In this document: piece by piece, positions 6,040 to 24,200 of the stretch
Layout of the letters: every line of letters starts with the position of its first letter
How positions within the stretch are numbered: position 1 is the first letter of the stretch
Notes under the pieces: generated by a model
Told to the model about the DNA's origin: nothing
Seen by the model: only the letters and a program-made list of their open reading frames with translations
Database searches by the model: none
Virus record (IMG/VR): IMGVR_UViG_3300017917_003435
Span: 1-27,652 of that record
From: a virus
Direction: 5' to 3' (one strand)
DNA: 27,652 nucleotides
Program-made: the position numbers and the translations under genes

Positions 6040-6738
6040 ATGCCAAGAAAAAGAACCCAAAAAATATATTTTGGGGAGGATCAAGAACAAGCGGTAGTAC
6101 GATACTTAGAATCTGAATCCGATGACGAACGTAACAAGATATTCAATGAATATTTAAGAGAACCCCTGATTATTATGGTGGAAAGTATTATCCGCCGATA
6201 CAAATTATATAGAAAAGATATGGAATTTGAAGAAATCCATACAGATACCATGTCTTTTCTAATAACCAAAATAAGCAAGTTTGACCATACAAAAAATACG
6301 AAAGCGTATTCATATTTTGGTACAATTTGCAAGAACTATTTGATGGGTGCAATCCAAAAGGATACCAAAGAGCAAAACCGCCAAATTTCTTATGATGATA
6401 TATCATCTGACCTTGAAGAGAACGAAAGTCATTCCTACGTCATAGATGAATTTGTAATTGACTATCGAGATGTTATTATCAAATTAACAATTGAATTAGA
6501 AGAATTTATTGAAAAACAAAATTTGAACGAAAACGAGCAAAAATTAGGCTATGCTCTATTAGAAATATTCGGAAATTTTGACAAGATATTCCAAGTAGGA
6601 GATGGTAATAAATTCAACAAAAACCTCATATTACTCTCATTAAGAGAAATGACCTCATTATCTACAAAAGAAATCAGAATCGCACTAAAAAGGTATAAAA
6701 GACTTTATGATGGGATTTTAGGTGGGTTTTTGGAATAA
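6040..6738 (+). CDS. 55: Late-transcription RNA polymerase sigma factor (T4 gp55-like)
   Basis: Directs host RNA polymerase to late promoters. The 232-residue protein carries a sigma region-2-like core, FDHTKNTKAYSYFGTICKNY at 81-100, preceded by the helical MEFEEIHTDTMSFLITKISK segment. The pattern (FD..k.tkaySYf.ti.kN.l) is that of diverged phage sigma factors. No clear region 4 is seen, which fits gp55-type late sigmas. The C-terminal part (about 145-232) is helical and ends in a hydrophobic YDGILGGFLE tail, reminiscent of the short sliding-clamp-binding tail of gp55, though this is only a suggestion. It lies one base after the GT2 gene. Its likely targets are the TATTTATA motifs in this window. 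Confidence 0.8.
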   Translation: MPRKRTQKIYFGEDQEQAVVRYLESESDDERNKIFNEYLREPLIIMVESIIRRYKLYRKDMEFEEIHTDTMSFLITKISKFDHTKNTKAYSYFGTICKNYLMGAIQKDTKEQNRQISYDDISSDLEENESHSYVIDEFVIDYRDVIIKLTIELEEFIEKQNLNENEQKLGYALLEIFGNFDKIFQVGDGNKFNKNLILLSLREMTSLSTKEIRIALKRYKRLYDGILGGFLE

Positions 6739-10873: not shown

Positions 10874-10881
10874 TATTTATA
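10874..10881 (+). promoter_or_regulatory. TATTTATA motif, candidate late promoter
   Basis: Exact TATTTATA on the coding strand, 11 bases before the ATG of the beta-rich virion candidate at 10893 and just after the spike-like gene. The A-rich leader AAGAAAAACAA follows. Confidence 0.5.
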
Positions 10882-13719: not shown

Positions 13720-14469
13720 ATGAATATTATAGTTTCTAGAGAAGATTTAAAATATATCCAAGAATCAATTGATTCAGGTGAAGTTTTACAGGAAGACTTG
13801 AGAAGATGGTTCAAAGAAAAATGGGTTGATGTTAGCAAAAAAGTCAATGGAAAACATCCACCATGCGGTAGAAGTGATGCAAATGGAAAATCTTATCCTA
13901 AATGTCGACCATCAAAAAAAGTATCAAAAGAAACACCAAAAGTTGCCTCATCTTATGATAAAAAAGAAAAGAAAGCAATGACAGCTCAAAAACGTAGAGC
14001 AGAGAAAAAGAACCCTAAAATTGGTAAGGGTAATAAACCAACAATGACACATTATAACGAAAATATGGAAAAAAGAACAATCATACAAATAACTGAAAGT
14101 CAATTTAATAGACTATTTGAATACAATGAAGAAGTACCAGTTTTAATCTATGAAGATGAATGTGGTTCAGTGCAAAACACTAATTTTGAATCTACCAACA
14201 TGCTTAATGAAGCCGAATACCAAGGTCGTAAAGTTCAACTTGGTAAAATTATGCAAGGAGATGTTAAGAAATTCAAAGTATATGTTAAAAATGATAAAGG
14301 TAAGGTTGTTAAAGTAAATTTTGGTTTTGGTGGTAAATCTGCAAAAGGTAAACGAATGGTTATTAAGAAAAATAACCCCAAAAGGCGCAAATCATTTAGA
14401 GCTAGACACAACTGCGCAAATCCAGGTCCACGTTGGAAACCACGTTATTGGGCTTGTAGAACTTGGTAA
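13720..14469 (+). CDS. Tandem tagged protein: two basic modules, each with its own N-terminal-like tag
   Basis: 249 residues. Residues 1-26 (MNIIVSREDLKYIQESIDSG, ending LQE-D) look like an N-terminal tag. A basic Cys module follows, with RRWFKEKWVDVSKK (28-41) and HPPCGRSDANGKSYPKCRPS (46-65). At residue 116 (ATG 14065) a second complete tag appears inside the chain, MEKRTIIQITESQFNRLFEY, whose ITESQF is nearly the LSESQL of the 12281 protein. An LNE-AE site (164/165) then precedes a basic C-terminal domain with KRRKSFRARHNC (221-232) and a Trp/Cys-rich end. This looks like a fusion of two formerly separate cargo proteins. Both modules are highly basic and could bind DNA. Function is inferred. 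Confidence 0.7.
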   Translation: MNIIVSREDLKYIQESIDSGEVLQEDLRRWFKEKWVDVSKKVNGKHPPCGRSDANGKSYPKCRPSKKVSKETPKVASSYDKKEKKAMTAQKRRAEKKNPKIGKGNKPTMTHYNENMEKRTIIQITESQFNRLFEYNEEVPVLIYEDECGSVQNTNFESTNMLNEAEYQGRKVQLGKIMQGDVKKFKVYVKNDKGKVVKVNFGFGGKSAKGKRMVIKKNNPKRRKSFRARHNCANPGPRWKPRYWACRTW

Positions 14470-14855: not shown

Positions 14856-14876
14856 TTAAGATAAAGATTATCTTAA
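14856..14876 (-). other. Perfect 9-base inverted repeat across the capsid stop codon
   Basis: TTAAGATAA and TTATCTTAA flank a three-base AGA centre. The TAA stop of the capsid gene lies in one arm. It stands 9 bases from the terminator hairpin and lacks its own T-run, so it may protect the mRNA 3' end or be an AT-rich coincidence. Confidence 0.4.
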
Positions 14877-16649
14877 AGTATCTAATCCGTAAGATACGAT
14901 ACCTTTTACATCGATAATTGCGAAGTAACGGTTGTTTACCATTTTCTTTGCGTAACGAGTCATGATACCTTTAATTGGAGTCATGTTAAAAGGATTGTAC
15001 ATTGTTGGAGTTAATTGTAATGGCACATATGGAGCATATACATAACCTGCGTCTAATAATGACTTACCTTTGTGACCGATAAGAATTTTACCAGCTGGGA
15101 AGTAAGGATCACGATAAACTTGGTAACGACCTGCTAAAGTACCGATTTTTTCAATACCCATGTTGTATTGGTCTTGCTCTGGATGAGCGTTAGATACGTG
15201 GAAATATTCTAAATCGTCGAATACAGCAGAAACTTCCGAAGAAACAACAATCCAGTTTGCACCACCTCTTAACGTAGTCTTGTGGATTTGAGCAGATAAT
15301 TGGTTAATCTTAGTGATTAACGTTTGGTTCCAGTCTTTTTGAGTGTAACCAACGTATGCAGAACCACCGTTACCGTATTTCCACTCATTGTAATCCCACT
15401 TAGCTTTCCATGCAGCACCTTTACGTAAGTCACGTAAGATTTCACGGTCAACTTCAGCAGCGATTTGCTCTGATAATAAAGCTGTTAATTCAGCTTCAGC
15501 ATCGATGTTATGGAACGCAGAAACGTCTTGTGCTAATTCTGGAGACCAGCTAGCTCTTAATTTTCTTTCAGTTACAGAAACTGTTACAGATTCTAAATCG
15601 AAAGAAACTTCACCAATTGCATCTTCAAATTCTAAAGAAGCATATTCTCTCCAAGTTGCTCTAAACTCAGAAGCTGCTAATGTAGAACCAGTTACAGTGT
15701 ATGGAGTGAAACCTGCAGTTGCATCGTATTTCTCGATATCAACTTGTACGTAGATAATACCATCTTGAGAACATACATTGTAGTAACCACCTGTGTTTGC
15801 ACCTGAACCAAATGCTTTTTCACCGTATTCAACAATACCTTTAGCGTATTTTTGAGTAACGATGTTGATTGGTAAGTTATCAGCAGCAGTTACGCCTAAG
15901 AAGTTCTGTAAGTTAGCATCAGTTGTAACAACTTGTAAAGAAGCTAAGAATTCTTCAGAATCCATTGGGTTACCGTTTGGTCCGATTAATTTACCTTGAC
16001 CATCAGCAGTAAAACCACTTAATTTTAAAACTACATATGATTTAGTTACACCAGTTGCAACAGCTGCAGATGTACTAACTACACCATTAGCGAATGTTGC
16101 GATACTCATAGTAGAACCAGTAACTACATTGAAAGAACCTTTTGAGTAATCAAAAAGACCTTGGTCGTTGTCGTCACTTGCTTCGTAAAAACGATCATAA
16201 AGGTTTTTACCTGGAGTGTTAGCGCCAGTTGTGTAACCATCTGTAGCTGTGTTGTTTCCAGTTACACCATTTGGTCCAGAGTATGGAGTGTAATGGTTGT
16301 TACTTCCGTCTCTTTCCTGAATTTTTGGAACGAAATAGAATAATTTACCAATTGGTAAGTTCATAGCTTGAACCGATACGATATCGTTAGCTAATAATTT
16401 AGAGAACACACGACGAATGATAGGGAATACCACAGTCTCAAAAGAACCAGAAGCATCAGAAACTGCTGCTTCGTTGATTAAATAAGACGCTTGGTTTTCA
16501 TATAATTGCGCGATGTTATCTTTTTGGTGACCGTCAAGACCTTCTAAGAAGCCTAAGTCATCCCATTTTCTGATGGTATCTTCTTTGATAACACGTAAAT
16601 GTTTTAATCCGATGTTACCAACCATACCGCTTTCTAATAATGCACCCAT
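14868..16649 (-). CDS. 23: Major capsid protein (T4 gp23-like)
   Basis: Forms the hexameric lattice of the head. 593 residues, somewhat longer than T4 gp23 (521). The N-terminal propeptide ends in YLINE-AAVSDASGS, a good match to the T4 prohead protease consensus, so maturation cleavage is predicted after Glu60 (Glu65 in T4). The mature part begins with the family-typical FETVVFPIIRRVFSKLLAND (70-89) and a VQAMNLPIG stretch. The C-terminal half contains RASWSPELAQDVSAFHNIDA and AAEVDREILRDLR, also typical of gp23. The order scaffold-capsid with a 29-base gap matches T4 genes 22-23. No TATTTATA lies in the short gap, so it is probably expressed from the scaffold promoter. A strong terminator follows. 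Confidence 0.96.
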   Translation of the reverse strand: MGALLESGMVGNIGLKHLRVIKEDTIRKWDDLGFLEGLDGHQKDNIAQLYENQASYLINEAAVSDASGSFETVVFPIIRRVFSKLLANDIVSVQAMNLPIGKLFYFVPKIQERDGSNNHYTPYSGPNGVTGNNTATDGYTTGANTPGKNLYDRFYEASDDNDQGLFDYSKGSFNVVTGSTMSIATFANGVVSTSAAVATGVTKSYVVLKLSGFTADGQGKLIGPNGNPMDSEEFLASLQVVTTDANLQNFLGVTAADNLPINIVTQKYAKGIVEYGEKAFGSGANTGGYYNVCSQDGIIYVQVDIEKYDATAGFTPYTVTGSTLAASEFRATWREYASLEFEDAIGEVSFDLESVTVSVTERKLRASWSPELAQDVSAFHNIDAEAELTALLSEQIAAEVDREILRDLRKGAAWKAKWDYNEWKYGNGGSAYVGYTQKDWNQTLITKINQLSAQIHKTTLRGGANWIVVSSEVSAVFDDLEYFHVSNAHPEQDQYNMGIEKIGTLAGRYQVYRDPYFPAGKILIGHKGKSLLDAGYVYAPYVPLQLTPTMYNPFNMTPIKGIMTRYAKKMVNNRYFAIIDVKGIVSYGLDTLR

Positions 16650-16678: not shown

Positions 16679-18211
16679 TTATTTTACCTTTCTCATCAAA
16701 TCTTTCATTCTCGCGAATTGTGGATTTTCATAAGCCTTAGCTTCAGATAACATTTCTTGAGAAGCTGATGATTGAGGCGCGTTAGTGATTTTTCCTGCCA
16801 CAGACTCAGAAACTGTTGTTTTTGCACCTAATTCTGTGATTATTGTTGTATACAAGTTTTTAGACTCGTTCATAGTAGAAACTGAATCAAATCTCTTTAA
16901 AATATTCAATTTCTCTTGTTTTGTCGTTGAATGTTCGGTGAAAATACGAGTAGCATAAGCTAAATTTGCGTTGAATACTGCAACTTCATTCAATTTTTCT
17001 TTGAATAATACTAATGCTTTTTTGTATTCTGTATTTTGGTTTCTCAAATTTTCAACCTCTTCATTTAATGAACCCGCTTTATTTGTATTCATTCCTTTGC
17101 TACCGGCTTTGAACTGTGTTCCACCGTTACCTTTTTTATGTAATGCAAATGTGCGTGCAGATTCAGTTGTTTCACCCTCTTTAGGTTCAACTTTTTTAGG
17201 CTTACTTAAACCTGGTAATGCAGATTCTTTAGGTTCAACCTTTTTAGGTTTACCTAAACCTGGCAAAGCAGATTCTTTTGGCTCAACTTTTTTAGGTTTA
17301 CTTAATCCTGGTAAAGCACTTTCTTTTGGCTCTACTTTCTTAGGCTTACCTAAACCTGGTAACGCGTTTTCTTTAGGTTCAACCTTTTTAGGCTTACCTA
17401 ATCCTGGTAATGCAGATTCAGTAGCTTCCATTTCATCAACTTCTTCTTCCTCTTCTTCTTCCATTTCAATTTCGTAGATTGTTTCTTCTTCCATTTCGTT
17501 CATCATATCTTCATCAGTAGACATAGATTCTTCATTCCAATCTTCGTCCATTTCTGAATCAGTATCCATGTCACCCATGTCAGAACCAAAGTCAGTATCA
17601 ACATCTGATTCATCATCAGCGTCAATTCCGCCTTCACCATCTAACTTGATAATGAATTCATCATCACCAGTTTCAAGCTCAACTTTGTTTCCGTCTTTTT
17701 TAACTACAATACCATCTTCTGGTTTCATAGCTTTGAATACTTTAAGAACTTCTGCATCAGAAGCACCTGTCATATCCATAACGTCTTCATCTTCTGTATC
17801 CATATCTGTTTCTGCATCTAAATTCATATCATCAGACATTTCATCTTCACCGCCGAAATCGTCAGTGTCAACTTCTTCTTCTGAATCAACATCATCTAGG
17901 TCAGTATCATCTGAATCCATAGAATCTTCGTCATCGCTTGATTCGTCGTCGTTATCGAGGTCTGTATCATCTTCAGTGTCGTCAGCAGTTTCATCTGCAT
18001 CGTCATCTGACATATCTTGTTCGTCCTCTTCTTTAGGCTCGGATGCAGAATCATCTACATCGTCTTCCTCTTCTTCCAATGATTCTTTAAGCAAATCCTT
18101 TAGTTCTTCCTTCATAGTTGAAGCAAGTATACCTTTTGCATTTTGCTTTACAGCTTCTTCAAGTGTATTGATTTGAAGTAACGCTTGTTCTAAAATTGAT
18201 TTTTCGCTCAT
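16679..18211 (-). CDS. 22: Prohead core/scaffold protein (T4 gp22-like) with repeats
   Basis: Assembles the internal core on which the capsid forms and is later digested by the protease. 510 residues, much longer than T4 gp22 (about 269). An N-terminal helix (1-45) is followed by a very acidic Asp/Glu/Ser region up to about residue 260. Five tandem 16-residue repeats (265-344; consensus ESALPGLGKPKKVEPK with small changes) then give a basic, Pro-rich stretch. A Gly/Lys-rich linker and a helical C-terminal region ending in ARMKDLMRKVK complete it. It lies between the protease and capsid genes, as in T4. Function is assigned by position and composition; the sequence itself is low complexity. 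Confidence 0.85.
   Translation of the reverse strand: MSEKSILEQALLQINTLEEAVKQNAKGILASTMKEELKDLLKESLEEEEDDVDDSASEPKEEDEQDMSDDDADETADDTEDDTDLDNDDESSDDEDSMDSDDTDLDDVDSEEEVDTDDFGGEDEMSDDMNLDAETDMDTEDEDVMDMTGASDAEVLKVFKAMKPEDGIVVKKDGNKVELETGDDEFIIKLDGEGGIDADDESDVDTDFGSDMGDMDTDSEMDEDWNEESMSTDEDMMNEMEEETIYEIEMEEEEEEEVDEMEATESALPGLGKPKKVEPKENALPGLGKPKKVEPKESALPGLSKPKKVEPKESALPGLGKPKKVEPKESALPGLSKPKKVEPKEGETTESARTFALHKKGNGGTQFKAGSKGMNTNKAGSLNEEVENLRNQNTEYKKALVLFKEKLNEVAVFNANLAYATRIFTEHSTTKQEKLNILKRFDSVSTMNESKNLYTTIITELGAKTTVSESVAGKITNAPQSSASQEMLSEAKAYENPQFARMKDLMRKVK
17180..17419 (-). repeat. Five tandem 48-bp repeats in the scaffold gene
   Basis: Units 17180-17227, 17228-17275, 17276-17323, 17324-17371 and 17372-17419, each encoding 16 residues of the type E(S/N)ALPGL(G/S)KPKKVEPK. 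The copies differ mainly at third codon positions, so the amino acids are kept while the DNA has drifted. Confidence 0.95.
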
Positions 18212-18236: not shown

Positions 18237-18244
18237 TATAAATA
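18237..18244 (-). promoter_or_regulatory. TATTTATA motif, candidate late promoter for scaffold and capsid
   Basis: The minus strand reads TATTTATA, 25 bases before the scaffold ATG at 18211, in the gap between protease and scaffold genes. The A/T-rich leader has no Shine-Dalgarno sequence. Confidence 0.5.
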
Positions 18245-18298: not shown

Positions 18299-18982
18299 TT
18301 ATTTGGATAAAAACTTGTCTAAACCACCCATTAATTTCTTCATTCTATCGTCAACAATAGGCTTTTTTTCCTCAGCTTCTTGGTATTGGTCTCTATCAGA
18401 TAAATCAGAAAAAATATACGCTCCTGGTGTAGATGGTGATGAAACTAAGTCAAAGCATACTAATTCAAAATCTTCTTGAACTATATTTTGACCTTTTATA
18501 TTTTTTAACGAACCCACACCACGTGATGAAATACCTAAAGTAGCACCATTCATCAATAACATAGCTGCTTGGTCACCTTTAGTTGACACAATACCCATTT
18601 TCTTCCATCCTGGTGATGTGAATAATTTAATTTTACCCATTAACATTTTACCATCCCACCACGTTTCTGTAATTGAATGTGAAACTCTATCTAAATCAAT
18701 AAGTGATGATGAAGGGTGGTTTAATTCGTTTAGAGCAATACCTTTTCTAATCATAGATTGGTATTTCTCGTTTTCTCTTTTTAATAATGTTTCAGGATAA
18801 ATTCTACCGTTCTTATTAGGTGTATCGTACTTTTGTAAAACAGCAAAAAGGATTAAGTCTTGTGAAAAGTCTAAATCCCTAGCTTCTTTTAAAATATTTT
18901 TATTTTCTTCTGGTGAAATGTGGCCGGCGTCATATTCAATCAAAATTCCCGTTCCGGTTTCTTTCGGTCCTAATATTTTCAT
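18299..18982 (-). CDS. 21: Prohead maturation protease (T4 gp21-like)
   Basis: Serine protease of the herpesvirus-assemblin/T4 gp21 type that trims the capsid protein and scaffold inside the prohead. 227 residues, close to T4 gp21 (212). The His of the active site is in NELNHP (His89); the nucleophilic Ser is in LGISSRGVGS (Ser152 or Ser153). FDLVSSPSTPGAY (177-189) is the conserved block that follows. The N-terminal NKNGRIYPE (57-65) is also typical of phage prohead proteases. The gene sits directly before the scaffold, as in T4, behind its own TATTTATA motif. A short C-terminal helix (DRMKKLMGGLDKFLSK) may dock on the core. Confidence 0.94.
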   Translation of the reverse strand: MKILGPKETGTGILIEYDAGHISPEENKNILKEARDLDFSQDLILFAVLQKYDTPNKNGRIYPETLLKRENEKYQSMIRKGIALNELNHPSSSLIDLDRVSHSITETWWDGKMLMGKIKLFTSPGWKKMGIVSTKGDQAAMLLMNGATLGISSRGVGSLKNIKGQNIVQEDFELVCFDLVSSPSTPGAYIFSDLSDRDQYQEAEEKKPIVDDRMKKLMGGLDKFLSK

Positions 18983-18998
18983 CTATAGATTTTATTTC

Positions 18999-19006
18999 TA
19001 TAAATA
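18999..19006 (-). promoter_or_regulatory. TATTTATA motif, candidate late promoter for the protease
   Basis: The minus strand reads TATTTATA, 16 bases before the protease ATG at 18982, in the 38-base gap after the gene at 19021-19446. Confidence 0.5.
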
Positions 19007-19020
19007 CATCAATATCAGCA

Positions 19021-19446
19021 TTATTTCTTTGATTTGTAGAAATTGAATAAGTTTTTGTCAATTAAACCTTCTTCTAAAATAGTAATAATAATATTTTTGA
19101 TTGATTCTTTTGTCTCTTTGGTTTTTACGTCAAAATGACTGTCCACGTATAATGTAATCTCAAGATTCATAAAAGACCTTTTTTCCAACTTTATCCCTTT
19201 TGTTCTAATATCTAAATCAACAATAGATTCTTTTTTAAATAAAGGGCTTTTAAGGTTATAAATTAATTCTTTAATTTTTCTTCTCGTTTTGTGAATTGTA
19301 AAATCAAAATCTTCATTTTCATTTTCTGGTTGCAACCAAGAATTTAATTTTAAATAAATGGTTTTAAGATTTTTAAAATCTACGGTACCATAACCGATTT
19401 TTACTTCATTGTATGTTCCTAATGGAATATACTTTCCTGTTTTCAT
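19021..19446 (-). CDS. Hypothetical protein between core-protein candidate and protease
   Basis: 141 residues, alpha/beta, no recognised family. It starts MKTGKYIPLGTYNEVKIGYG, has a central KTRRKIKELIYNLKSPLF helix and a later FMNLEITLYVDS strand, and ends in basic FNFYKSKK. The strand-helix-strand layout recalls small neck or completion proteins, but this is only impression. It lies in the head block with its own TATTTATA motif 41 bases upstream, so a role in head or neck assembly is likely. It is divergent from the bS21 gene. Confidence 0.7.
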   Translation of the reverse strand: MKTGKYIPLGTYNEVKIGYGTVDFKNLKTIYLKLNSWLQPENENEDFDFTIHKTRRKIKELIYNLKSPLFKKESIVDLDIRTKGIKLEKRSFMNLEITLYVDSHFDVKTKETKESIKNIIITILEEGLIDKNLFNFYKSKK

Positions 19447-19487: not shown

Positions 19488-19495
19488 TATAAATA
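19488..19495 (-). promoter_or_regulatory. TATTTATA motif, candidate late promoter
   Basis: The minus strand reads TATTTATA in the 103-base divergent gap between the 19446 gene (minus) and bS21 (plus), 41 bases before the 19446 start. Confidence 0.45.
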
Positions 19496-19525
19496 AAAAA
19501 CACATAAATTCCAAAAATATTTTTA

Positions 19526-19533
19526 TATATTTG
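19526..19533 (+). promoter_or_regulatory. Bacteroidota-type -7 box for the bS21 gene
   Basis: TATATTTG matches TAnnTTTG exactly, 16 bases before the bS21 ATG. No convincing TTG -33 element is seen at the expected distance. This differs from the TATTTATA motif used by the structural genes and suggests transcription by the host sigma. Confidence 0.45.
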
Positions 19534-19549
19534 TAATATACTTATTATT

Positions 19550-19741
19550 ATGATTATTATTAATTTAGAAAACGAAAGGAATATTGAATCTGCTTTAAGA
19601 ACTTATAAGCAAAAAGTTCAAAAAACTAAGCAAGTACAAAAACTTAGAGAAAGACAAGAGTTCGTAAAACCATCGGTTAAAAAACGAACCCAACGTTTAA
19701 AAGCAATCTATATTCAACAAATAAAAAATGGTCTTAGTTAA
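19550..19741 (+). CDS. rpsU: Phage-encoded ribosomal protein bS21
   Basis: 63 residues that read as a complete bS21, the small basic protein near the anti-Shine-Dalgarno end of 16S rRNA in the 30S subunit. The N-terminal strand MIIINLENERNIESALRTYK corresponds to the family start (IxVxxNExxxxALRRFKR). KTKQVQKLRERQEFVKPSVK matches the central helix-turn (KTG...LR.R..F.KPSV), and the C-terminal KRTQRLKAIYIQQIK helix is like that of Bacteroidota bS21. It is the only plus-strand gene in the minus-strand head block and has a host-type -7 box. Its end shares a bidirectional terminator with the opposing gene. It probably replaces or supplements host bS21 to favour phage mRNA translation (inference). 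Phage bS21 is known from other large phages. Confidence 0.9.
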   Translation: MIIINLENERNIESALRTYKQKVQKTKQVQKLRERQEFVKPSVKKRTQRLKAIYIQQIKNGLS

Positions 19742-19752
19742 GACCATTTTTT
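19723..19752. terminator. Bidirectional terminator shared by bS21 and the opposing gene
   Basis: A perfect 14-base stem with a two-base GT centre: AAAAAATGGTCTTA pairs with TAAGACCATTTTTT. Each strand ends in six T residues, so it can stop transcription both ways. Both stop codons (plus 19739-19741, minus 19736-19734) lie inside it. Confidence 0.88.
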
Positions 19753-20471
19753 AATTCATTCAATCTGTAATAATTATACCTAGAAGCGTTTATTGAATTT
19801 ACTTCCTTTTTAACATTATCAAGTTTATTCTTCAAATCTAAATCTGAAGACTCTGTCATTAATGATTCTACTTGGTTGAGTATTGATTCTTTTAATTCTT
19901 TTGTTTTTACTGTTAATTCTTCGTTAGATAAATTTAAAATATTTTTCAACTCTTCTTTTTGGCTTTCGTTTAGGGTGTTATTGTATAAAACATTAAAATT
20001 ATTTGTTAAAATAGCATTTAATAAACTTTCATTTGTAACAACTGGTCCAGATTCTGGTTTAGCAGTTTCTTTTACTGTTGTCAAATGTTCAACTAAAGTT
20101 TTCTTTGCATTTACCTTAGTTTCAATATTTGCTAATTTATCACTTTCAGATAAAACATCTAACGCATCATAAATTTCGTTGGTTGATACTTTTGCTTCAG
20201 TCAATTTTTTATCAAGTGATTTACAAAATTTAGATAACTTATTGTTTTCATTACTTAACATAGTACTTAATCCTTCAACAAATAGTTTTGCAGTTTCTTT
20301 ATCTTGAATATATTTGTTTTCAATTTCTTCATAAAACAAATACATTTCTTTGAAATCTTTATTTTCCTTTATTGTTGTTAAAATATTCTTTATCTCTGCT
20401 TTATTTTCTTTAGCATAAGATTCAGTTAATTTATTTAATAATTTAGTTTTGATAGCGCCAAATCTGTTCAT
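19734..20471 (-). CDS. Helical protein after portal; candidate prohead core protein (gp67/gp68 position)
   Basis: 245 residues, almost wholly helical and rich in Lys, Glu, Asn and Leu, with coiled-coil-like stretches around 25-90 and 170-225. It starts one base after the portal stop, the place where T4 has the small core proteins gp67 and gp68, and such a composition suits a prohead core component. Its N-terminus (MNRFGAIKTKLLNKLTESYA) resembles the helical leader segments on other proteins here. There are several Glu-Ser junctions (VLSE-S, LTE-S, MTE-S) that the protease could cut. Sequence homology to gp67/68 is not evident; the role rests on position. Confidence 0.7.
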   Translation of the reverse strand: MNRFGAIKTKLLNKLTESYAKENKAEIKNILTTIKENKDFKEMYLFYEEIENKYIQDKETAKLFVEGLSTMLSNENNKLSKFCKSLDKKLTEAKVSTNEIYDALDVLSESDKLANIETKVNAKKTLVEHLTTVKETAKPESGPVVTNESLLNAILTNNFNVLYNNTLNESQKEELKNILNLSNEELTVKTKELKESILNQVESLMTESSDLDLKNKLDNVKKEVNSINASRYNYYRLNELKNGLN

Positions 20472-20472
20472 G

Positions 20473-22359
20473 TTAATCGTTTAATATCTCTTTCAATTTA
20501 TTTTCTATTTCATAAATATTCTGTTGTGCTTTATCCATATCAAATAAATCACTTAAATCTAATTCTTCTTCACCTAGCATACCTAATATTTTTGATTTTT
20601 TTGTTTTGTTACCTAAAGATTCACTTAAAGGTGCTGCTGGTGCTGCTGCTGCTTCTCCACCTAATGGTGCTTCAGGTGCTCCACCAATTTCTCCACCAGG
20701 TGCTCCACCCATATCACCACCACCTAACGATGGCATACCACCACCCATATCTCCACCACCCTCTGGTGATGCTGCTGCCATAGCTTTTTCTCTTTCTTCC
20801 TCAGGTATACCGTACTTCTTATCAACTTCATCAAATACGCCTGAACGCTTAATTACATTTTGTGTATTCGTCAATTCAAATCCTAATGCACGTTCTAATC
20901 TTTGTTGTTGTAAATCTAATAATACTTCAGAATCACTCATACCTAAAATGTTTTTCTTAGCCCATGTATGTGATACTGGTAAGATACCCATTTGTGATTG
21001 GTCAGATGTTGCGTCCTTATACAAAGTTACTTTTTCTTTCCATGATTCAATCTTTAATAAATCTGATTGTGTTGATGGGTTAGATAAAGACAATTGGAAA
21101 TTATTTAATTCATCTTCCATACCCAAAAGGTATAAATGAATTAATGCAATTTTATTTAATTCTTGTATTAAAGATTTTTGTATCTTATTGATAGTTCTTG
21201 CAAAACGAATATCCATCAAAGCAAGATTCTTACCATCACCAACAACTTCTTCAAATCCTAAAAATGCTTTAGGAATACGTAGAGCAGCTAACATCTTTTT
21301 TTGGATGTATTCAATGTCCGCAATTTCACCTAAGTTCTGTGCACCTGGTAATGTTTCAATTGGATTAGCTTGTGATGGGTCACGTACAGGAATGAAATAA
21401 TCTTGGTCTACTGCCATTTGATTATATCTCATATCTACCTGTCCGTTTTTGGGGTCTGCAATTTGGTCTCTTTTAAATTTATTTGCAACACGTTGTACGT
21501 ATGGTTCAATATCCTTATCATCCATATTACCAACAAAAATCTTGAACACACGTCTTTCAGGTGCTCTTGATGTTCTATAAATTAACATTGCATCTTCTGC
21601 AAGTAAAAGTTGTTTCCAAATTCTTCTAACCTTATCCAACATTGAAGTTCCGTATGGTAATTTTCTATCGTCACCTAACAATCTAAAGTGCGCCATTTCC
21701 CATGCCTGAAATTCCATGTCTTTATTTTTCCAAGTAAATCTTAATTCTCTACTTGGCATTTTTTTATCCATTATTTGACCGTTATTCTTAGCGGCCGCTC
21801 CTTCTAATCTTTCTATTTCAATATTTGGTAATTGCTGACATCCAACAATACCTTTCTCAGGGTCAACTTTCAAATAAACAAAGTTGTCACCATACTTACA
21901 TACACCACGAGCCCACATTTGTAAATTCGTGTTGATATCTAATTTATCTTTAAATAAATCTTCTAATATTGCTTTGATTCTATCTGAATCAGAAAAGATT
22001 GTTAAAATCTCACCTTTTTCTGACATTGTTGTTGATTCCTCCGAATAGATATCTAATGCAGCTGAAATCTCTGGTGTAAATTCCATAGATTCGTAATCAT
22101 AATATGCTGCTAATCTATTAGGTTCATAATATACTGATTGATTGTAAAGCGATTGATCTAACTTAGCCCATTTGTCAGCAACGTAAGCACTTTGTTGTGC
22201 TTGTAACATAGCTTTTTCAAATTCGGTTCTATCGTCTGTTTTTAATAATTCGTTTTTATTGAAATTAAATGTTGGTGTATCTTCCTTAGATGCAACACCA
22301 GGAAAACCAAACATTCTTGTTAATTTCTGAAAAACTGTTAAATTTTGATTATTTGCCAT
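20473..22359 (-). CDS. 20: Portal protein (T4 gp20-like)
   Basis: Forms the dodecameric ring at the head vertex through which DNA is packaged. 628 residues against 524 in T4. The family core is visible: EFTPEISAALDIYSEEST near residues 93-110, the wing/stem region with QMWARGVCKYGDNFVYLKVD, then FRLLGDDRKLPYGTSMLDK and RRVFKIFVGNM. A later IQKKMLAALRIPKAFLGFEE is typical of the crown-side helix. A Gly/Met/Ala/Pro-rich linker (about 529-578) and a short acidic helical tail (about 579-628) extend the C-terminus beyond T4 gp20. It lies between terminase and the core-protein candidate, as in T4, with a TATTTATA motif 4 bases before the ATG. Confidence 0.94.
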   Translation of the reverse strand: MANNQNLTVFQKLTRMFGFPGVASKEDTPTFNFNKNELLKTDDRTEFEKAMLQAQQSAYVADKWAKLDQSLYNQSVYYEPNRLAAYYDYESMEFTPEISAALDIYSEESTTMSEKGEILTIFSDSDRIKAILEDLFKDKLDINTNLQMWARGVCKYGDNFVYLKVDPEKGIVGCQQLPNIEIERLEGAAAKNNGQIMDKKMPSRELRFTWKNKDMEFQAWEMAHFRLLGDDRKLPYGTSMLDKVRRIWKQLLLAEDAMLIYRTSRAPERRVFKIFVGNMDDKDIEPYVQRVANKFKRDQIADPKNGQVDMRYNQMAVDQDYFIPVRDPSQANPIETLPGAQNLGEIADIEYIQKKMLAALRIPKAFLGFEEVVGDGKNLALMDIRFARTINKIQKSLIQELNKIALIHLYLLGMEDELNNFQLSLSNPSTQSDLLKIESWKEKVTLYKDATSDQSQMGILPVSHTWAKKNILGMSDSEVLLDLQQQRLERALGFELTNTQNVIKRSGVFDEVDKKYGIPEEEREKAMAAASPEGGGDMGGGMPSLGGGDMGGAPGGEIGGAPEAPLGGEAAAAPAAPLSESLGNKTKKSKILGMLGEEELDLSDLFDMDKAQQNIYEIENKLKEILND

Positions 22360-22363
22360 TGTA

Positions 22364-22371
22364 TATAAATA
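22364..22371 (-). promoter_or_regulatory. TATTTATA motif, candidate late promoter for portal
   Basis: The minus strand reads TATTTATA with 4 bases to the portal ATG at 22359, in the 54-base gap after the terminase stop. Confidence 0.5.
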
Positions 22372-22413: not shown

Positions 22414-24189
22414 CTATTTCCGTTTACCAAACAACCAATTATATTGCTGGTAGGCTTCTTTTTGAGATGTCATTTGTTCAGGTCTCATTCTTGTTGGTGT
22501 GCCATCAATACCCATTGAACTAATCTGGTCAAACACTGTACCATAAGAATAAAATGATTTTTGTGGTTCATACGTTCTTTCAGATAAAGTCCATGACTCC
22601 ATCATAGCAACATTTTTTGCAGTGTTCCTTTCTAATTGATTAAAACATATATCACCAGCATACAAAGCCATAGATAAGCTCATAATAGCATCGTCATGTG
22701 ATCCTTTCATATGGTCTGGTCTACCATTGATATAAACAAACGTATTCAGTTCATTTAATAATCTATTTGAACGTACTTGAAATCCTTTTCTTACTTGCTC
22801 TTCAAATGCTGCGATTATTTGTGTTCTTTTATTATTAAAATTCAAACCTGGTATTTTTTCTAGTGCTTTACGGTTATAGTCCCAAATATTTTGTGTGTTA
22901 ACTCCATCAATATATAAATTTTTATAATTCATTTCTTGGAGTTTACGAGATGTTGCAATTCCCATACCGCCTGTGATATCAATTACAATAAAACATTCGT
23001 ATAATATCCCCCATTTGTATGCGATTTCAGCTAAATTATCTGGTTCTATTTTTCCAACATATTCAAGCACCTGTTCTCTATCATCAAAGTCAACAATGTT
23101 AATTGATGAAAAGTCTTCACTATCTCCTCTACTCACGTCAACGCCCATAATATAACGATGACCTTGGATTGGTTCTTTCCATTGCCACATTGTGCCCTGC
23201 ATGTATTTTTCTTTTGGTTCTCTAATTTGATTTTTTCTGATTTCTTGCTGAACATCACTTGGAATTACACCATCACCCGAACCGAGGAAATCACACTCCA
23301 ACTCCTGTGCAATTTTACGTCTATCGAATTTGAATTTTTTAGACATAGATTCAAACCAAGATGAAAAAGGTTTGTATCCTTGTTCTTCATATTCACGATA
23401 TTTTTTAATATCAAAGTCCCACAAAACAACTTCATCATCATTATATTGTTCTCTGTTTAACATATAATGGCATATATCATCACATTTAACCCATCTTAAA
23501 TCTTTTGTATATCTTGGGTCTTTAAACCATCTTAAGTCTGTAATATGAAAGTCATTAATACCACGAACAGCTTGGTCATATACACCATAATAAATTGGGT
23601 CATAACCGTTTGGTGTGGAAATCAATATAATCTTACCACCCGTAGAAAGAGAGGCCATAGAAGCCGCCCAAAAGTCTTCACCTGCTTCAATATACGCAGC
23701 CTCGTCAAATATTAATATTGTTGGAGTAAATCCTCTCAACGCATCACCTGATGTTGCTACCGCTTTTACTTCACTACCATTATTAAGTCTAAATCTACTT
23801 TCTGAGTTTTTATCAGGTGAAAAACCAACATTCATCCACTCAGGCCATTGTTCCAAAAAGTGTCTGATTTTGTTTGCAAGTTCTATTGCGGTATCACGTT
23901 TGTTCGCAATACATAAAACTCTTTCAGGGTTTTCTGGTTTAGCTAATTGTAATTTTCTTGAAACCCATGCGGCTGTTACTGTAGACACACCTGCTTGTCT
24001 ATATTTTTTTGTGATGTTTTCATTGTAATTTTCATAGTCCAAAATCAATTGCTCTTGGTCTTCGAATAATACTAATGGAACAAATTTTTTCTGTGTGTTA
24101 TCGTAAGTTTGTAAGTAAGTTCTAAGAGCATACGGACAATCTTTCATAATTTTCGCATACTCTTTTAGTTGTTCTACTCTTGTATTCAT
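22414..24189 (-). CDS. 17: Terminase large subunit (T4 gp17-like)
   Basis: ATP-driven DNA packaging motor and headful nuclease. 591 residues (T4 gp17 has 610). The ATPase part has a deviant Walker A, YRQAGVSTVTA (63-73), lacking the usual GK(S/T) as in many T4-like terminases. Walker B is ILIFDEAA (158-165), and the coupling motif LISTPNG is at 189-195. The nuclease domain begins at IMGVDVSRGDSEDF (347-360; metal-binding Asp351). It continues with FIVIDITGG (400-408, Asp404) and the last acidic site in SHDDAIMS (497-504). It starts its own transcription unit after a terminator, with TATTTATA 3 bases before the ATG. Confidence 0.97.
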   Translation of the reverse strand: MNTRVEQLKEYAKIMKDCPYALRTYLQTYDNTQKKFVPLVLFEDQEQLILDYENYNENITKKYRQAGVSTVTAAWVSRKLQLAKPENPERVLCIANKRDTAIELANKIRHFLEQWPEWMNVGFSPDKNSESRFRLNNGSEVKAVATSGDALRGFTPTILIFDEAAYIEAGEDFWAASMASLSTGGKIILISTPNGYDPIYYGVYDQAVRGINDFHITDLRWFKDPRYTKDLRWVKCDDICHYMLNREQYNDDEVVLWDFDIKKYREYEEQGYKPFSSWFESMSKKFKFDRRKIAQELECDFLGSGDGVIPSDVQQEIRKNQIREPKEKYMQGTMWQWKEPIQGHRYIMGVDVSRGDSEDFSSINIVDFDDREQVLEYVGKIEPDNLAEIAYKWGILYECFIVIDITGGMGIATSRKLQEMNYKNLYIDGVNTQNIWDYNRKALEKIPGLNFNNKRTQIIAAFEEQVRKGFQVRSNRLLNELNTFVYINGRPDHMKGSHDDAIMSLSMALYAGDICFNQLERNTAKNVAMMESWTLSERTYEPQKSFYSYGTVFDQISSMGIDGTPTRMRPEQMTSQKEAYQQYNWLFGKRK

Positions 24190-24192
24190 ATA

Positions 24193-24200
24193 TATAAATA
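24193..24200 (-). promoter_or_regulatory. TATTTATA motif, candidate late promoter for terminase
   Basis: The minus strand reads TATTTATA with 3 bases to the terminase ATG at 24189, directly downstream of the terminator at 24202-24227. Confidence 0.5.

Follow-up and report, generated by a model that had tools for sequence, protein, structure and literature searches.

The window analyzed here, a virus record of 27.7 kb, carries on its plus strand a complete bS21 gene (19550–19741; 63 aa, ATG to TAA). Profile searches place the product in the bS21 family, with curated cut-offs exceeded across the domain: the PF01165 match scores 45.5 bits (Pfam; cut-off 27, E 6e-12), the score lies above the cut-off of the TIGR00030 equivalog (NCBIfam), and the PHROG match is "ribosomal protein S21". 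The best PDB sequence match is F. johnsoniae bS21 (7jil chain z, E 4e-13, residues 1–62). The genes on both sides are encoded on the minus strand and form a T4-like head block. The ORF is thus confirmed as a real bS21 gene amid T4-like head genes, and the original prediction, which was made from the letters of the window, was right about both its identity and its opposite orientation.

A T4-like head block and its plus-strand bS21 gene

On one side of bS21, we observe a 245-aa hypothetical protein, p245 (19734–20471), which is convergent with bS21, overlaps it by 8 nt and ends in KNGLN, followed by the portal protein gp20 (20473–22359) and the large terminase TerL (22414–24189). On the other side are the divergent hypothetical protein CN141 (19021–19446, 141 aa), a prohead protease of the Peptidase_S77 family (18299–18982), an acidic 510-aa protein (16679–18211) and the major capsid protein gp23 (14868–16649). 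The acidic protein is a probable prohead scaffold, as it matches proteins located between the protease and the capsid gene in cultured relatives. Matches in Pfam and PHROG identify a T4-like head module with gp17, gp20, the gp21-type protease and gp23. Just past the block, the protein encoded at 13720–14469 on the plus strand matches DUF5872 above cut-off (51.6 bits).

This arrangement has already been described. Chen et al. 2022 (PMC9723584) reported 47 Bacteroidetes phages from freshwater in which bS21 runs opposite to the same head genes, and the window, in which bS21 opposes TerL, portal, protease and capsid genes, is a further example. As in clades a–e of that study, the gene lies between two conserved hypothetical genes, encodes a Flavobacteriia-like bS21 with Tyr54 and shares its genome with PhoH and dUTPase genes. 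CN141 is probably one of the two constant bS21 neighbours of Chen et al. The cultured Microcystis phage Mel-JY01 (PP395634) is likewise T4-like, has a portal protein with 41% identity and carries RpsU in its head block (L304, 11617–11844). Unlike in the window, however, the Mel-JY01 bS21 shares the strand of the head genes, lies two genes after the protease and is divergent in sequence, and no CN141 match was found in that phage.

The phage protein belongs to the same family as the product of F. johnsoniae rpsU (McNutt et al. 2023, PMC9976891), with 50% identity, and is of the Bacteroidia type, which is recognized by an aromatic residue at F. johnsoniae position 54. This residue, Tyr54 in the window, stacks on the 3′ tail of 16S rRNA, and its retention is in keeping with the known link to masking of the anti-Shine-Dalgarno (anti-SD) sequence on which the original prediction drew. 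Among 106 phage rows, position 54 is Y in 102, H in three and F in one. The residues that separate phage from host bS21 are instead found in and after the first helix, at positions 21, 23, 27 and 28; the window has the phage-type Q21, V23, K27 and Q28, and the host residues at the last three of these positions are mainly F, G and T or V. Chen et al. also noted that phage bS21 retains Tyr54 and diverges in the first helix (PMC9723584). Across 51 distinct sequences, the median dN/dS is 0.115, which indicates purifying selection.

CN141 has no credible family in Pfam or PHROG and no match in annotated phages. Its AlphaFold model (mean pLDDT 85) is confident and predicts a mixed alpha/beta fold that matches nothing in the PDB below E 0.001; the sole viral structural match below that value is A0A8S5L9A5, an uncharacterised myovirus protein. 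These family, phage and structure comparisons rule out a recognizable enzyme or known ribosome factor, and the protein is left without a known function.

Relatives, origin and loss of the phage gene

A search of IMG/VR yielded 295 candidate stretches with relatives of the window bS21. Wherever the contig is long enough, the neighbours lie on the opposite strand without exception (CN141 in 74/74, p245 in 73/73 and the protease in 65/65). The same layout recurs at 20 loci of a second, deeper lineage, in which bS21 is ~50% identical. One viral-labelled contig (L162) is probably host sequence, as its bS21 and leader nearly match those of bacterial loci such as L234, and was set aside.

In a tree of bS21 built with host sequences (64 columns), as had been suggested with the original prediction, the two phage lineages group together, next to Flavobacteriales hosts, which is consistent with one old acquisition. 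Among the nearest host rows, two (L273 and L299) carry the Shine-Dalgarno (SD) sequence. The phage bS21 alignment, run against bacterial genomes, retrieved no relative.

Six loci have no bS21 between p245 and CN141 (L370, L379, L381, L384, L385 and L389), while p245 and the portal gene are still in place. On the CN141 tree, these empty sites fall in two separate, supported places inside bS21-bearing lineages, from which we reconstruct that bS21 was lost at least twice with the head block retained. These losses imply that, in some hosts, the phage can do without the gene. Four of the empty-site records, which are fragments, showed no bS21 at any other position. With adjacent bS21 absent at 6 of the 73 CN141 loci, CN141 is ruled out as an obligate bS21 partner. 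If CN141 is the bS21_CN of Chen et al., it is found here also in phages without adjacent bS21, unlike in their two outgroups.

The bS21 leader and the shared terminator

Upstream of bS21, we observe three elements on the plus strand: a CCAAAAA tract (19511–19517) that is conserved and has no assigned function, the host-type −7 box TATATTTG (19526–19533), and TACTTAT (19539–19545), a variant of the phage-wide element TATTTATA. The box, which has the form TAnnTTTG, starts 24 nt before the ATG, a position kept in relatives. Its count in the window is near chance (5 found, 4.0 expected); between −30 and −18, TAnnTTTG occurs in 29 of 38 distinct phage leaders, with 0.3 expected from shuffles. The rpsU genes of Flavobacterium have this box as well. 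A stricter definition of the host promoter, with TTG 17–23 nt before the −7 box, was non-discriminating, being found in 8/29 boxed phage leaders and, in a comparable test, in 19/80 Flavobacterium rpsU regions.

In the set of 38 distinct phage leaders, TAYTTAT starts at −12 in 26, and in the window it starts at −11; it resembles the TATTTATA that precedes the head genes. The window contains 12 copies of TATTTATA where 5.6 are expected, a count reached in 0/100 shuffles, and most copies lie just before gene starts. On the minus strand, they precede the scaffold (18237–18244), protease (18999–19006), CN141 (19488–19495), portal (22364–22371) and terminase (24193–24200) genes. Further copies before gene starts lie at 10874, 12269 and 13709 on the plus strand and in L305–L312. 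In 160 kb of a 335-kb relative, TATTTATA precedes 35/196 ORF starts versus 1/196 in-gene controls, starting mostly at −15 to −11. It often lies just 4–5 nt from the ATG; if it is a promoter, the mRNAs would be nearly leaderless. A candidate late sigma factor resembling gp55 (6040–6738, plus strand), with a weak but specific match to the PHROG late sigma family (E 3e-4) and Sigma70_r2 below cut-off, is a possible reader of this putative promoter element. In the data of Chen et al., bS21 transcripts appear late in infection, alongside those of capsid genes (PMC9723584). In line with these RNA data, and taking TATTTATA as a putative promoter, we infer late-programme expression of bS21, contrary to the originally proposed expression on a different schedule from the late genes around it.

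Compared to Flavobacterium rpsU, the phage leader differs in the absence of an SD. In F. johnsoniae, bS21 limits its own synthesis via an extended SD in rpsU that is best used by bS21-deficient ribosomes (McNutt 2023, PMC9976891). We find an extended SD at 80/80 Flavobacterium rpsU loci (32 distinct leaders), with pairing to the 16S tail of −16 to −17.2 kcal/mol, whereas 0/38 distinct phage bS21 leaders have an SD, and their pairing ranges from +2.2 to −3.2 kcal/mol (+0.9 kcal/mol in the window). The phage gene thus falls well short of the extended SD of −13 kcal/mol or better that marks autoregulated Flavobacteriales rpsU. Among 47 distinct bS21 genes reached through the CN141 search, a partly overlapping set, none pairs below −3.7 kcal/mol. 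Spacing differs as well: TAnnTTTG starts at −37 in most Flavobacterium rpsU leaders and, in those of phages, at about −25, which is ~12 nt closer to the ATG. The segment missing from the phage gene is roughly the one containing the SD. By its leader, phage bS21 appears not to be subject to the feedback loop described in F. johnsoniae.

The reach of this contrast depends on the host. In wider host samples, with loci chosen partly by profile score, only 14% (class) and 17% (order) of rpsU genes have an SD at −13 kcal/mol or better; an extended SD in host rpsU class-wide is therefore rejected, and the contrast holds only if the phage's host is Flavobacterium-like. In these samples (L183–L302), the extended SD is far rarer than the ~80% reported for Flavobacteriales, and many of the order-sample genomes are small. 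The phage genes themselves were originally described as lacking SD sequences, and we find no credible SD before any gene in the window and no SD signal above shuffled controls in 196 ORFs of the 335-kb relative. Because phage genes are generally without an SD, the SD-less bS21 leader may be the default phage style rather than a selected escape.

Downstream, a bidirectional terminator-like hairpin (19722–19753; 15-bp stem, 2-nt loop) spans both convergent stop codons. Among 13 distinct sequences, three pairs changed on both sides, and the covariation score exceeds those of all 500 shuffles and all slid versions. The bases of the hairpin also encode the C-terminal NGL of both bS21 and p245: being palindromic, it makes the two convergent proteins each end in NGL plus one residue. 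At the six loci without bS21, a hairpin comes after p245 and before CN141, and in 4/6 it overlaps the p245 stop codon as in the window. In the second lineage, bS21 has a different C-terminus, and any hairpins observed are located past the stop. From this comparison, the conserved NGL tail of bS21 can be explained at least partly by the terminator, which calls for caution in reading a conserved phage bS21 C-terminus as an adaptation to ribosome binding. 

Overall, the original interpretation stands as to identity, strand, −7 box, shared terminator, SD-less genes and retained Tyr54, while its separate schedule does not; nor does its novelty, as the idea had already appeared in print in 2019 and 2022. 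The text of Chen et al. (PMC9723584) does not deal with the leader and terminator, and for these and the losses, we found no earlier report in the literature searched, which did not cover most subscription journals and preprints. What is new here is a viral bS21 copy without the SD control signal by which Flavobacterium limits bS21 production.

Possible roles of phage bS21 on host ribosomes

Phages carry bS21 more often than any other ribosomal protein (PMC6375957, PMC9976891). We favor, with moderate confidence, a functional phage bS21 that would escape the host feedback. The gene would have been acquired long ago from a Flavobacteriales-like host and retained by selection in a lineage of T4-like jumbo phages. 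Its product keeps the end that masks the anti-SD (Tyr54) and alters the first helix and the following turn (V23, K27, Q28). Most likely, it is made along with the head proteins and would take the place of host bS21 on 30S subunits. As the gene has no extended SD, its synthesis should persist once ribosomes are saturated with bS21, a state in which expression of host rpsU should be reduced. Against this reading stand the 64 columns of the bS21 tree, the repeated losses and the sole functional test of a viral bS21. In that test, the bS21 of Pelagibacter phage HTVC008M, also phage-borne but of the alphaproteobacterial type, was shown to enter E. coli 70S ribosomes, a foreign host, and the ribosomes were nearly inactive (Mizuno et al. 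2019, PMC6375957).

A simpler account, which we consider possible though rather unlikely, is that the phage supplies extra copies of an ordinary, exchangeable subunit protein, keeping ribosomes complete during heavy late synthesis with no bias toward phage mRNAs. Retention of Tyr54 and most core positions and the purifying selection agree with it, as does the observation that F. johnsoniae ribosomes without bS21 initiate poorly on SD-less mRNAs (PMC9976891), given that phage genes lack an SD; a plain copy, however, would not be expected to have phage-specific residues fixed at 21, 23, 27 and 28. Less probable still is the proposal, shared by the original prediction and Chen et al., that the altered first helix attracts phage mRNAs. 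The phage-specific residues do fall in a region of bS21 placed near the mRNA path by Chen et al., who also found late expression shared with capsid genes, but we know of no sequence feature by which bS21 could distinguish phage from host leaders, both being SD-less. Because Flavobacterium host mRNAs also lack an SD, anti-SD masking alone cannot favor phage mRNAs, and a preference, if there is one, would have to arise from the changes in the first helix and turn. A non-ribosomal role, for example as a virion or assembly protein, is suggested by the constant position in the head block, and packaging into the virion was raised by Chen et al., but it is very improbable given that bS21 was lost at least twice with head genes retained and that the ribosome-contacting Tyr54 is kept in 102/106.

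Returning to the replacement of host bS21 on the 30S subunit, we tentatively suggest a further step, in which the phage exploits the host feedback: its SD-less gene would be immune, while its product would fill ribosomes, mask the anti-SD and in this way shut off SD-dependent host rpsU. If so, host bS21 would be replaced without any protease. With the leader comparison, the vague notion of "retuned" ribosomes becomes a single measurable prediction for F. johnsoniae, which is genetically tractable: phage bS21 expressed there would lower rpsU′-gfp and not phage-leader reporters.
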